Part shown: positions 4,380-55,447 of the stretch, piece by piece
Layout: each line of letters begins with the position of its first letter
Numbering within the stretch: the first letter of the stretch is position 1
NCBI GenBank assembly: GCA_001899635.1
Contig: MKVQ01000006.1
Coordinates: 62,001-126,000 of the forward strand
DNA length: 64,000 nucleotides
Origin: Myxococcales bacterium 68-20
GTDB lineage: Bacteria > Myxococcota_A > Polyangia > Polyangiales > Polyangiaceae
Reading direction: 5' to 3'
The notes under the pieces: generated by a model
What the model saw: only the letters and a program-made list of their open reading frames with translations
Databases searched by the model: none
What the model was told of the DNA's origin: nothing
Program-made: the position numbers and the translations under genes

Positions 4380-5774
4380 TCAGCGGCAGCGCTGGGTTAT
4401 CGTGGACGTCGTCACACTCGGCGATTGGCCGACATCAGGACAGGTACCGCAAATCTTCCTCAATCCGGCGACTCCGCATGCGACGACCGACGTGAAGCCG
4501 ACGGTGGTGCCGTCGCTGTTGCAGACGAAGTACGGAGGTCCGCCCCGGCCGCAGGAGAGGTTGCTGCGCTGCCCCTTGGTGGAGCACTTGGTGGAGAACG
4601 AGCAGCCGTTGAGCGCAAGGCCGGAGCAGTAGCCGCATGCGCCCGCATGCTCCAAGATCTCTTCCGTCTCCTTGACCACCTTGCCGTCGCAGTCATAGTC
4701 GAACGTCGGTACGCCACCCGGCGGCGTGTACGAACTGGCAAAGTAGCCCGTCTGGTTCGGACGGACGGAGGCCGCGACCGTCGTAGTCGGATTGCCGTCA
4801 TAGCAATCGTCCTTGTTCGCTACGAAGCCGGCGGGCGGCTGCCCCACGCATCCGAACGCCGCACGACCGTTATCGATCGTGCCCTTCGAGTCACCGTACC
4901 CATCGCCGTCTTCGTCCCGGTAGAAGAGCTCGCACGGTCCGGTGGCGCATGCGGAGCACCGGCAGCTACCGACGCTGCCGGGCGCCTTGCAGGTCCCGCC
5001 CGCGATCTCGCACGCATCGTTGCAGCAGACCTGGTCGATGCAGAAGCCGCTCTTGCACTGTGCGACCGACGAGCACGCCGAACCGTTCGCGACCTTCGGC
5101 TTGCACGTGCTCGAGACCGCGTCGCAGAAATGCGTCGGGAGGCAGTCCGCTTCACCGGTGCACATCGTCTTGCAGCCAGGCGAACCGTCCGAACACGCAT
5201 ACGCGCTGCACTCCTCGATCCCGTAAAGGCAGTGCCCCTTGCCATCGCACGAGGCTCGCCCCTGATGCGTGGCGCTTCCGCAAAAGGCAGTTCCGCAGGT
5301 CCGCTCGCTCCCGGCGAAAGCGCACGCGCGCTTGCCATTGCACTTGCCGGCGCACTGATTGTCGTCCGGCGCGACGCCGCCGTCCGGGAATACGAAGGAA
5401 CCACCCGCGTCGCCTCCCGAACCACCGCCAGCGTCTGGCGAGAGCGGCGTGGTCGGGCACTCATCATCCGGATCCTCGCCATCGGCGATCGCCTCGCAAC
5501 GGCCCGTCGACCCGGGCAGACTGCATTTTTCGCAGGTGCCGTCGCATGGCGAATCGCAGCAGACGCCATCGGCGCAATTCCCCGATGCGCACTCGGTCGC
5601 GACCGTGCACGCCGCTCCGTTGTCCTTGGCCCCCGGCGAATTTTCGGACGGGTTGCTCGCATCGCCCTCTGGCGGCGTCACCACGCCCGGATTGTCCTCT
5701 CCGACGCAGCCCACGGAGACGTGCCCAAGAACGAGAGCGGCACCCGCGACCACGGCAACGACAACGCGCTTCAT
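4380..5774 (-). CDS. Cys-rich secreted lipoprotein with DxDGDG motif
   Basis: A 464-residue exported protein. The N-terminus is a signal peptide ending in VSVGC, a probable though imperfect lipobox. The mature part has many CxxxxxCxSGxC units (TECASGNCADGVCC, QCKSGFCIDQVCC), a pattern frequent in myxobacterial surface proteins. Near residue 285 a DEDGDGYGD motif resembles calcium-binding thrombospondin type-3/MopE-like repeats, followed by DCYDGNP and YDCDG, typical of the same family. It is likely an outer-surface lipoprotein stabilised by disulfides and calcium. It stands alone on the minus strand, convergent with the phosphoesterase. Specific function unknown. Confidence 0.85.
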   Translation of the reverse strand: MKRVVVAVVAGAALVLGHVSVGCVGEDNPGVVTPPEGDASNPSENSPGAKDNGAACTVATECASGNCADGVCCDSPCDGTCEKCSLPGSTGRCEAIADGEDPDDECPTTPLSPDAGGGSGGDAGGSFVFPDGGVAPDDNQCAGKCNGKRACAFAGSERTCGTAFCGSATHQGRASCDGKGHCLYGIEECSAYACSDGSPGCKTMCTGEADCLPTHFCDAVSSTCKPKVANGSACSSVAQCKSGFCIDQVCCNDACEIAGGTCKAPGSVGSCRCSACATGPCELFYRDEDGDGYGDSKGTIDNGRAAFGCVGQPPAGFVANKDDCYDGNPTTTVAASVRPNQTGYFASSYTPPGGVPTFDYDCDGKVVKETEEILEHAGACGYCSGLALNGCSFSTKCSTKGQRSNLSCGRGGPPYFVCNSDGTTVGFTSVVACGVAGLRKICGTCPDVGQSPSVTTSTITQRCR

Positions 5775-53635: not shown

Positions 53636-54022
53636 GTGGTGGAGATCCATCGCACCGCGATCGGTCGTGGCGCCGAGGCGCTCGCCTCGGATCACGTCGC
53701 TGCGGACGGCTTCCGGGTCCTGTGGCGGAACGTCCGGATCGGGCCTCTCGAGATCGACCTCGTCGCGAAGAAGGACAACCTCGTGATCATCGTCGAGGTG
53801 AGATCGCGCGGCCCTGGCGCGCTCGAGGGCCCGCTCGCGAGCATCACGTGGAAGAAGCGCCGCCTGCTGCTGCGCGCCGCGCGAGGTCTCTGGCGCGGTC
53901 GCCTGAAGAAGATGCCGGACGTGCAGCGCGTCCGGATCGACGTGATCGCGATCACGTCATCGCCGACCGAGCCGCCACGCATCGAGTGGATCCGCGGCGC
54001 GATCACTGAAGACACCCGCTGA
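53636..54022 (+). CDS. YraN/UPF0102 family protein
   Basis: 128 residues with the family layout: GRGAEALASDHVAADGFRVL, then NVRIGPLEIDLVAKKDN, VIIVEVRSR, and ITWKKRRLLLRAARGLW. The Asp of EIDLVA and the ExR of VEVRSR correspond to the restriction-endonuclease-like active site (D-ExK type, with R in place of K). The family is often encoded near rnhB/rsgI-type housekeeping genes and linked to DNA processing, but its role is not settled. GTG starts at 53636 and 53639 are equally possible. Confidence 0.85.
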   Translation: MVEIHRTAIGRGAEALASDHVAADGFRVLWRNVRIGPLEIDLVAKKDNLVIIVEVRSRGPGALEGPLASITWKKRRLLLRAARGLWRGRLKKMPDVQRVRIDVIAITSSPTEPPRIEWIRGAITEDTR

Positions 54023-54150
54023 ACGCCAAGGGCACCGCGCTTCTGCCCTTCTTCGCACGCCCTCGATGCGCTCCGACGCGCACGACACGCTCGACGCACT
54101 CCGAGATCCTCGACACGCTCGACTCGCTCCGACGCGCGCAGAGAGAGAGA

Positions 54151-54230
54151 ATTTCACAGGGAGACAGATGGCCCTGCTTCTTTTGCAACCTGGACCCTCA
54201 TGGGCGCTCCCAGAATCGCTTCGCGATTCT
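54151..54230 (+). repeat. Structured repeat, left copy
   Basis: Begins ATTTCACAGGGAGACAG, then ACCTGGACCCTCATGGGC, and ends in the hairpin AGAATCGCTTCGCGATTCT (stem 8 bp). It pairs with an inverted copy at 54504-54589. The hairpin bases differ between copies but pairing is kept. Confidence 0.65.
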
Positions 54231-54503
54231 GCTCGCAGAATTGAGCCTCCCTTTCGACCTGCGAGGTGATTCAGCACAGGCACTGGCGTCATTGCCGGCT
54301 GCCCAACTCGCCTTTTGCCGCCCACTTTCGACCATGCAGAACGGCTCGAGAAGGAAGCTCTCGATTCATGCAGTCTGCACGCACACGAACCAAGTACGTG
54401 CACGGTGCAACAACAATCCCCCGAAGGTCTCGGACCGAAGCCCGGAAGGCGCACCGTTTGGGGAAGGCCCATGGAGCCTGGTAGTGAGGTCTCCCTTTCC
54501 GAA

Positions 54504-54589
54504 GGAAATGCGAAGCATTTCCTGAGGCCCAAGAGGCACCAGGTCGAGAGAGAAGGAGCCCCCTCTCGCTCCCTGTCTCCCTGTAAAAT
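54504..54589 (-). repeat. Structured repeat, right inverted copy
   Basis: On the minus strand it begins ATTTTACAGGGAGACAG (16 of 17 identical to the left copy), then ACCTGGTGCCTCTTGGGC, and ends in the hairpin GGAAATGCTTCGCATTTCC (stem 8 bp). The two copies bound a segment of about 440 bp. Confidence 0.65.
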
Positions 54590-54700
54590 CCCCTCTTCGT
54601 CTTCGAGCTGCGAAACGCGCGTCACGGCGGCGACCACCTCGCGAGCGCCGCCCGCACCATCCCGTCGCCTTCGAGCTGCGAAACGCCCGTCGGGGTGCGG

Positions 54701-55447
54701 CTACCGCTCGAGCGCGGCTCGCATCTCGTCGCGCACCTTGGCGATCCTCGCGATCGCGGCCTCGCTCGCGCCGCTCTCCTTTGCTTCGGTGATCGCGGCG
54801 GCGAGCTCTTCGACCTCGGCGGCCTGGCGCGCCTTGAGCTTCTCGACCATCCCCGCGAAGACCTCGAAGAAGTCCTGGAGCTCGTCGCCCTTCCGCAGCT
54901 TGCCCTGGAAGTTCAGCTTCCCGTCGCCGACCTGACGAAGGAGCATCTTCATCTTGTAGATCGGGCCCACGACCTTGTGCGTGAAGTAGATGCCGAGCAG
55001 GCCGATGAGCACGACGAGGAGCGTGAGGCCGGCGATGAGCGCGAGCATCATCGTCTGCTGCTGGCTCTTCGTCGTCGCAGCCTGCGCCTCGAGCGCCGTG
55101 TGCTTCTGCTGGAGCTGCTTGTCGAGCTCGTCGGCGCTCTTGTTGAACGTCGCAGCGAGCTCGGGGGAGTCGGCGTACTGATCCTTGATCTGCATCTTCA
55201 CGAGGTCAGAGTTCTTCTGACTCTCGTTGATGAGCGCGGTGCCCTGCGCGATGACCTTCTGACTCTGCTCCGTGACCTCGCGGCTCGTCTGGTAGAGGAA
55301 CACGCCCATGAGCGCGCTGATCGCGAGCGCCACGAGGATGATGCGCCCCGTCCATTTGAGCTGGAACTTGGCGTCCAGCAGGTAGTTCTTGATGCTGCGC
55401 TTGTACTTCGGGGCTGCGGCGGACGCGGGCTGTGCGGACGTTGTCAT
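54701..55447 (-). CDS. Two-helix HAMP-domain membrane protein without output domain
   Basis: A 248-residue protein. A basic N-terminus (KYKRSIKNYLLDAKFQLK) precedes TM1 (about 35-53). A periplasmic helical region of about 80 residues follows (EVTEQSQKVIAQGTALINES) and TM2 is about 132-153. A HAMP domain (THKVVGPIYKMKMLLRQVGD) leads into a helical tail that ends after about 50 residues. It resembles the front half of a chemoreceptor but has no methyl-accepting or kinase module, so it must act through a partner. It lies 52 bp downstream of the HEAT-repeat gene, probably in one operon. Confidence 0.83.
   Translation of the reverse strand: MTTSAQPASAAAPKYKRSIKNYLLDAKFQLKWTGRIILVALAISALMGVFLYQTSREVTEQSQKVIAQGTALINESQKNSDLVKMQIKDQYADSPELAATFNKSADELDKQLQQKHTALEAQAATTKSQQQTMMLALIAGLTLLVVLIGLLGIYFTHKVVGPIYKMKMLLRQVGDGKLNFQGKLRKGDELQDFFEVFAGMVEKLKARQAAEVEELAAAITEAKESGASEAAIARIAKVRDEMRAALER

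Follow-up and report, generated by a model that had tools for sequence, protein, structure and literature searches.

A 437-bp palindromic element and a wider class of gene-end palindromes associated with GxxExxY nuclease genes

The 64,000-nucleotide stretch of DNA analyzed here (the window) contains a 437-bp palindromic element, a member of a family dispersed through the 11.9-Mb genome that contains the window (G000; the window lies on contig C6). Within the bacterial family, these elements are part of a wider class of palindromes whose arms consist of tandemly repeated units, each about 8 bp long, and most of which lie near the 3' ends of genes. We found that the arms of such palindromes switch type between sister species and that the palindromes are associated with genes of the GxxExxY family (TIGR04256/PF13366, PDDEXK_3), a member of the PD-(D/E)XK nuclease superfamily. 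The window element is probably best read as a REPIN- or MITE-like non-autonomous palindromic mobile element linked to GxxExxY, with this nuclease taking the role of RAYT. Palindromes of similar build bracket this small and little-studied nuclease gene in four bacterial phyla, a hint that a new type of miniature mobile DNA may be involved. The element and its surroundings comprise the following features.

53636..54022, + strand: UPF0102 family gene, directed at the element (Pfam PF02021, E 5.5e-16)
54140..54167, + strand: left end, purine-rich outer tract and arm TTTCACAGGGAGACAG (read from the sequence)
54152..54588, no strand: whole palindromic element, copy C6 (437 bp; paired ends and homology to seven other full copies)
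54168..54302, + strand: left conserved domain (eight-copy alignment)
54188..54205, + strand: inner inverted repeat, left side ACCTGGACCCTCATGGGC, pairing with 54527-54544
54212..54230, + strand: hairpin 1, AGAATCGC-TTC-GCGATTCT (eight-copy alignment; one position C-G or T-A)
54303..54416, no strand: variable centre, aligning poorly among copies (eight-copy alignment)
54417..54572, + strand: right conserved domain (eight-copy alignment)
54504..54522, - strand: hairpin 2, read on the minus strand as GGAAATGC-TTC-GCATTTCC (eight-copy alignment)
54527..54544, - strand: inner inverted repeat, right side, complement of ACCTGGTGCCTCTTGGGC (read from the sequence)
54573..54603, - strand: right end, inverted arm CTGTCTCCCTGTAAAA and outer pyrimidine-rich tract (read from the sequence)
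54701..55447, - strand: gene without a confident family (Pfam matches sub-threshold only), directed at the element and kept in congeners

The preliminary description of this DNA had reported inverted structured repeats at 54151-54589, and we could confirm them as outer ends, an inner repeat and two 8-bp hairpins with TTC loops on opposite strands. The inverted ends (54144-54167 and 54573-54596) are 24 nt long and 88% complementary, and the element is flanked by a convergent gene pair (53636..54022 on the plus strand and 54701..55447 on the minus strand). The left arm holds about one repeat unit in the window copy, three GGGAG units in the other seven copies, or four in the case of C4. Folding z-scores were -5.2 for the plus strand and -6.9 for the minus strand, and none of 100 shuffles folded as well on either strand. 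A codon-usage gene caller placed no gene inside the element, as had been stated for the approximately 440 bp bounded by the pair.

The two hairpins had been compared as two copies; they are in fact both ends of one 437-bp element, and the compensatory argument as originally put is weak for this reason. Across the eight copies, one position of hairpin 1 is C-G in six and T-A in C2 and C36, so that all eight pair, and the stem of hairpin 2 is identical in seven copies with a variable loop and broken in C20, where half of it is deleted (both by eye). The covariation within the G000 family is real but slight, and alone it is weak evidence that the fold is selected.

The genome search proposed at the outset did recover further copies, so that the part of the stated refuting condition that concerns copies does not hold. 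BLAST with the window element returned seven other full-length copies, mostly in pieces, and together with a pattern search it defined eight full copies of 418-715 bp including the window copy (C2, 491 bp; C4, 418 bp; C6, 437 bp; C16, 715 bp; C20, 442 bp; C36, 638 bp; C41, 451 bp; C43, 431 bp), besides a 48-bp remnant on C15 of which only the two ends are left. The pattern TTTYACAGGGAGACAG, allowing up to two mismatches, occurs 9+9 times in the 11.9 Mb of G000 and 0 times as a reversed-pattern control, which argues that the repeats did not arise by chance. All 18 of these ends stand in inward pairs. The ends are conserved across copies, with about one to four GGGAG units, and the left and right domains can be aligned but the centre cannot. 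The long centre of C16 (L057, approximately 5180-5500) has TGTCAC-type repeats and may be an insertion-sequence remnant, and the left flank of C2 (L054, approximately 4985-5085) is similar to the centres of C16 and C36 (both by eye). When 4.5 kb on each side of the copies were compared, sharing was limited to GA repeats, to 59 bp on the right side of both C16 and C36, and to a few segments whose offsets are unrelated; the flanks are essentially unrelated. A search of 107 other genomes from the bacterial family at E 0.001 gave no match to the window element, a DNA search of phages and plasmids likewise gave none, and the end pattern was absent from viral contigs.

Seven of the eight full copies (C2, C6, C16, C20, C36, C41 and C43) lie between convergent genes according to the codon-usage gene caller and Pfam, compared with five of the 31 gene gaps in the window, the element's own gap being counted (P 2e-5). 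One neighbour is distant for C2 (1127 bp) and for C43 (781 bp), and at C41 the upstream ORF extends 33 bp into the element. The remaining copy, C4, has ftsA and ftsZ on either side in the same direction (L055, G000:C4:116300-126700, element at 4978-5395), and no strong palindrome was found in the ftsA-ftsZ spacer of the six congeners examined. The C15 remnant has a tandem gene setting. The spacer orthologous to that in the window lacks the element in two congeners, measuring 93 bp in G059 and 109 bp in G058. The check for empty sites in relatives, which had been suggested, gave these two spacers, but a clean empty site with a duplication was not found; the single occupied/empty sister pair (G082 2472577) resembles a deletion scar. 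Likewise, no clean target-site duplication was seen, the flanks being purine or pyrimidine tracts and the relatives too diverged. The idea of a non-autonomous mobile element, raised in the preliminary description, is well supported for the window family because its copies are dispersed, their flanks are essentially unrelated, the spacers of two congeners lack the element, no end was found unpaired and one copy has a candidate enzyme gene beside it.

With at most one mismatch allowed, the end motif is present in 12 genomes out of 183 from the order; one of these is G017, the matches of which were set aside as an apparently different repeat. In G082, the copies measure approximately 84-142 bp and are palindromes in which arms of about three units, (GGGAG[AG]CG)n, enclose a hairpin-forming interior. 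Genome-wide, the arms are balanced between orientations, with 86+84 in G082 and 163+161 in G083 and 0 for the reversed-pattern control in both; within the stretches studied, 9+9 of 9+9 arms were mated in G082 and 14+14 of 14+15 in G083. Arm copy number varies widely among congeners, down to 0 in G058 and 1+1 in G081 by pattern. The called neighbours of 20 G082 elements are convergent in nine cases, tandem in seven, divergent in one and undefined in three, as given by a simple gene caller that scored the element at G082 2539338 once as convergent and another time as tandem. We also scanned all spacers of at least 20 bp for inverted repeats of any sequence with a score of at least 16, in syntenic stretches of 180 kb of G082 and 200 kb of G083 picked around a known element. 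Strong inverted repeats were present in 17/41 convergent, 14/99 tandem and 0/57 divergent spacers; the convergent excess over other spacers gives a Fisher P of 4e-6 with the sister genomes pooled, the two sets of counts not being independent because G082 and G083 are sister species.

The comparison of these two species, which are roughly 86-92% identical in long syntenic blocks, revealed how the arms change. All 14 comparable elements occupy the same site in both species, namely the nine paired-arm elements of the stretch and five of 13 further G082 elements tried, the other eight lacking both flanks in the G083 stretches, the places of which had been guessed. The arm type differs at 12 of the 14 sites, and the other two are of the beta class in both species. 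The G082 arms are of the alpha type ACAGGGAGRCGGGGAG, and those of G083 are of the beta type ACAGGAAGACGGGAAG (or its variant ACATGAAGG) or the gamma type ACAGGGAGATCGGGAG; two additional G082 sites with CGCCAGG-type (delta) arms carry gamma or beta arms in G083. Both arms are altered at switched sites, with pairing largely kept; in the first nine sites, pairing survived a two-sided change at 31 of the 216 arm positions. This two-sided change in the wider class is far stronger than the covariation within the window family, and it is as indicative of homogenization among copies as of selection for a fold. At one locus (L120), the interior is common to both species (54/58 aligned bases) and the arms are alpha in one and beta in the other; at another (G082 2457710, G083 2553434), the interior is inverted in place. 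An interior similarity test over 13 pairs gave a fraction of 0.026 at or above the observed value, carried by three pairs, these two loci among them, with ten pairs not ranked first. Conversion of arms on a retained interior and replacement thus both seem to occur.

A 422-bp element of G082 with alpha arms encloses a GxxExxY gene (PF13366, TIGR04256). In the G083 ortholog of this element, beta arms flank the orthologous gene (97/114 aligned residues identical). A PF13366 search of eight genomes gave 17 matches, corresponding to approximately 15 genes, in six of them; the two genomes without a match are G058 and G081, which have few or no arms by pattern. The sole match in G000 (G000:C41:194191-194538) ends approximately 170 bp from copy C41, and in G059 the sole match ends 64 bp away from the one element that end patterns detect there, the gene lying beside rather than between the arms in both cases. 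In a Labilithrix MAG (L064, 2990-3576), ends are nested twice around a tandem array of 33-bp units that adjoins the only GxxExxY match of that genome.

Inverted arms span the GxxExxY gene at 13 of the 21 loci tested, in four phyla, each scoring beyond all 30 shuffles of its flanks. Among 360 random 345-bp control segments, one reached a score of at least 15 and three a score of 14 (Fisher P 6e-18 for loci against control, with loci pooled and partly related). The spanned loci comprise nine of 14 within the bacterial family (L250-L263) and four of seven plasmid-borne ones, the latter being seven of eight plasmid matches. Plasmid loci with spanning arms come from Gemmatirosa, Bacteroides, Bernardetia and Sphingomonas, and by the flank-shuffle test no spanning arms were found at those from Prevotella, Treponema and Fusobacteria. 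Among the eight loci without spanning arms, five belong to the bacterial family: the adjacent cases of G000 and G059, and three with arm-like sequence on one side (by eye). One further locus, L264, has arms around the gene and was left out of the count as cut by a contig end, and L265 and L266 represent second fragments of genes that were counted or are cut; L258, likewise cut by a contig end, has gene limits that are off by 186 bases, and its arms still span the gene.

The arm sequences vary by phylum (CCGCAGAGGACGCAGAGG, CCACAGAGGACGCAGAGG, CACGCGAAGGCGCGAGG), and the repeat-unit build is common to all. On Gemmatirosa plasmid 1 (L267/L275-L279), a split GxxExxY match lies between two complete palindromes; ten paired palindromes were found in the 230 kb examined, none of them in two of the five stretches, and the eight with clear contexts showed no convergent bias (two convergent, four tandem, two divergent). 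In Sphingomonas parapaucimobilis, a GxxExxY unit lies between fabD and fabG, and the corresponding spacer of S. paeninsulae is approximately 30 bp long without such a unit (by eye). The GxxExxY proteins of G082, G083, G000 and G059 all have a D...E-L/I-K pattern, which we take to be of catalytic meaning. Three nuclease pairs from G082 and G083 are 95% identical with the same arms, 85% identical with switched arms and 77% identical with partly different arms, so nuclease divergence and arm change are not strictly correlated. No GxxExxY relatives were found in viral contigs and phages. We also considered the interior of the giant copies as a decayed GxxExxY gene and rejected this, the best tblastn match being no better than E 1.5. 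The sources consulted stated no function for GxxExxY beyond the nuclease superfamily; in the open-access papers searched, PDDEXK_3 gave no match, and the name GxxExxY appears in two, an RT survey (PMC8934634) and another paper (PMC12085832).

We infer from these associations that GxxExxY mobilizes the palindromes. The nuclease would recognize the arms in trans and spread or convert small palindromes, as RAYT is thought to do for REPINs. Resident palindromes might be cut and then repaired from another copy, and such cleavage and repair is the reason we propose for arms switching type in blocks at fixed sites. Insertions would mostly be tolerated downstream of stop codons, and the transcript there would fold into a long hairpin that may also serve as a bidirectional 3'-end structure. 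A broader version, which we put forward tentatively and hold to be a little short of probable, is that an undescribed class of mobile DNA, spread across phyla, is moved by GxxExxY proteins: this PD-(D/E)XK nuclease would recognize tandem-unit arms and copy or convert them in a homing-like manner, often at gene ends, while co-evolving with the arm type, and the 437-bp window element would be a giant non-autonomous member. Alternatively, something else may move the palindromes, with the nuclease gene simply carried along inside them. Counting against mobilization by GxxExxY, neither movement nor cleavage was seen, eight of the 21 loci lack spanning arms (the gene lies beside the arms in G000 and G059), arm change does not strictly follow nuclease divergence, and the Gemmatirosa palindromes lack a convergent bias. 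If GxxExxY does drive a REPIN-like system, intergenic palindromes gain an enzyme, and there would be a second, unrelated way to move miniature palindromes. The in-place, two-sided arm switch between G082 and G083, whose flanks are roughly 89% identical, offers a natural experiment on the homogenization of dispersed palindromes, and enzyme-arm co-evolution could be tested in these two single-contig genomes.

The REPIN-RAYT system, according to the portion of its description cited here (PMC3116915), consists of inverted doublets around a variable spacer that shows compensatory changes, together with a single-copy enzyme gene beside the cognate repeats. The palindromes studied here are alike in their inverted pairs of conserved ends around a variable, hairpin-forming spacer, in compensatory changes, in being dispersed and non-autonomous with several families per genome, and in a single-copy enzyme gene beside cognate repeats. 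They differ in that the candidate enzyme is GxxExxY and not a Y1 transposase, and in that the arms are tandem units of about 8 bp that change type in place between sister species. The Y1 transposase family PF01797 had no match in G000, G059, G046, G099 and G103, and matches were present in G082, G083 and G017; a Y1 transposase as the mover in G000 was rejected accordingly. Given the different enzyme and the lack of a Y1 match in G000, we do not class the window family as a REPIN/RAYT member. The GTAG/CGTC REPs and TIRYT elements, as far as the cited part of PMC3733652 describes them, are also palindromes located mostly in convergent and unidirectional spacers, but the arm build is different here and their tyrosine (Y1) transposase is unmatched in G000.

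Among competing explanations, the one that survives best, albeit as a rather unlikely one, holds that selection maintains the palindromes as bidirectional transcription terminators or as 3'-end structures of mRNA, with dispersal being secondary and arm change reflecting compensatory or termination-factor co-evolution. The position at gene ends and the absence of strong inverted repeats from divergent spacers in the scan would suit it; a called stop codon is no more than 35 nt away from 16 of 20 G082 elements, and the predicted folding energies of 21 elements range from -35 to -92 kcal/mol. Outward of the arms, G is absent from positions 4-9 (38 ends in G082, 18 in G000) and the tail is T-rich on both sides, with T enriched over approximately 17%; a GC-rich hairpin is present, and the tail is mixed U/C with 45-66% T at positions 4-11 in G082. 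The G059 window spacer carries a plain perfect hairpin in place of the element (by eye), and compensatory change is known in terminators from the cited part of PMC5381666. However, an obligatory terminator is argued against by copies between co-oriented genes, one between ftsA and ftsZ and the GxxExxY unit of a relative between fabD and fabG, and one of the 20 G082 elements has divergent called neighbours. Moreover, copy number differs widely among congeners, whole arms are exchanged between distinct repeat types, and the link to GxxExxY is left unexplained. A terminator role is thus possible, not general. The RNA-level element suggested at the outset beside a mobile one is possible in that the location at gene 3' ends, the stable predicted hairpin and the two-sided, G-free pyrimidine tail would fit it.

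We regard it as improbable that the element is a conventional MITE mobilized in trans by a transposase that escaped detection, with GxxExxY as a passenger. MITEs share terminal inverted repeats, the lack of coding capacity and a variable interior with the window family, the ends of which are conserved and the middle variable, and the absence of a Y1 transposase match from G000 is compatible with this account. Yet a parent transposon with these ends was not found, and between arm ends we saw no transposase but the GxxExxY gene, enclosed by alpha ends in G082 or beta ends in G083. Furthermore, every end found in G000 lies beside its mate, a clean target duplication is lacking, and GxxExxY is associated with palindromes in four phyla despite their different arm sequences. 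That the 440-bp form represents a family of structured non-coding RNA genes is very improbable: the strong predicted fold and the conserved left and right domains speak for it, and against it the window element has no Rfam family match, the centre aligns poorly, the 48-bp remnant keeps the ends only, and covariation among copies is slight. The 23S rRNA intervening sequences are another known arrangement in which a hairpin stem surrounds a small ORF and is harmless in transcripts. They differ from the elements described here in their protein family and in lying within rRNA.

DNA uptake sequences occur as many single copies, not in pairs only. That the palindromes are an uptake signal, made of inverted pairs and differing between species as dialects, can hardly be credited, because the arms are mostly paired (18/18 ends in G000 and nearly all in the G082 and G083 stretches), even if inverted pairs at terminators and genome-wide sequence change, reported for Neisseriaceae in the cited part of PMC3630211, have their likeness here in gene-end inverted pairs and species-wide change. 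These dialects are the nearest parallel for the species-wide arm change; they differ from the present elements, which are mostly paired palindromes of tandem units. Counter to the pairing, seven plus and five minus arms of a second G000 family are mateless at up to two mismatches and nine further mateless arms were listed, most of them with a degraded partner (by eye).

This second family in G000 consists of palindromes of mostly approximately 70 bp with ACAGGAAGGCGGGAAG arms, at about 20 sites (L210-L229). The centre is often TTGATCAA-like, and outer flanks of approximately 30 bp are conserved. With mateless arms counted, 20 contexts comprise ten convergent, nine tandem and one divergent. Lastly, pairs of inverted, telomere-like TTTAGGG units lie near gene ends at two G082 sites (G082:C1:2478288 and 2528388; L191 and L194), and these pairs are shorter in the sister species.
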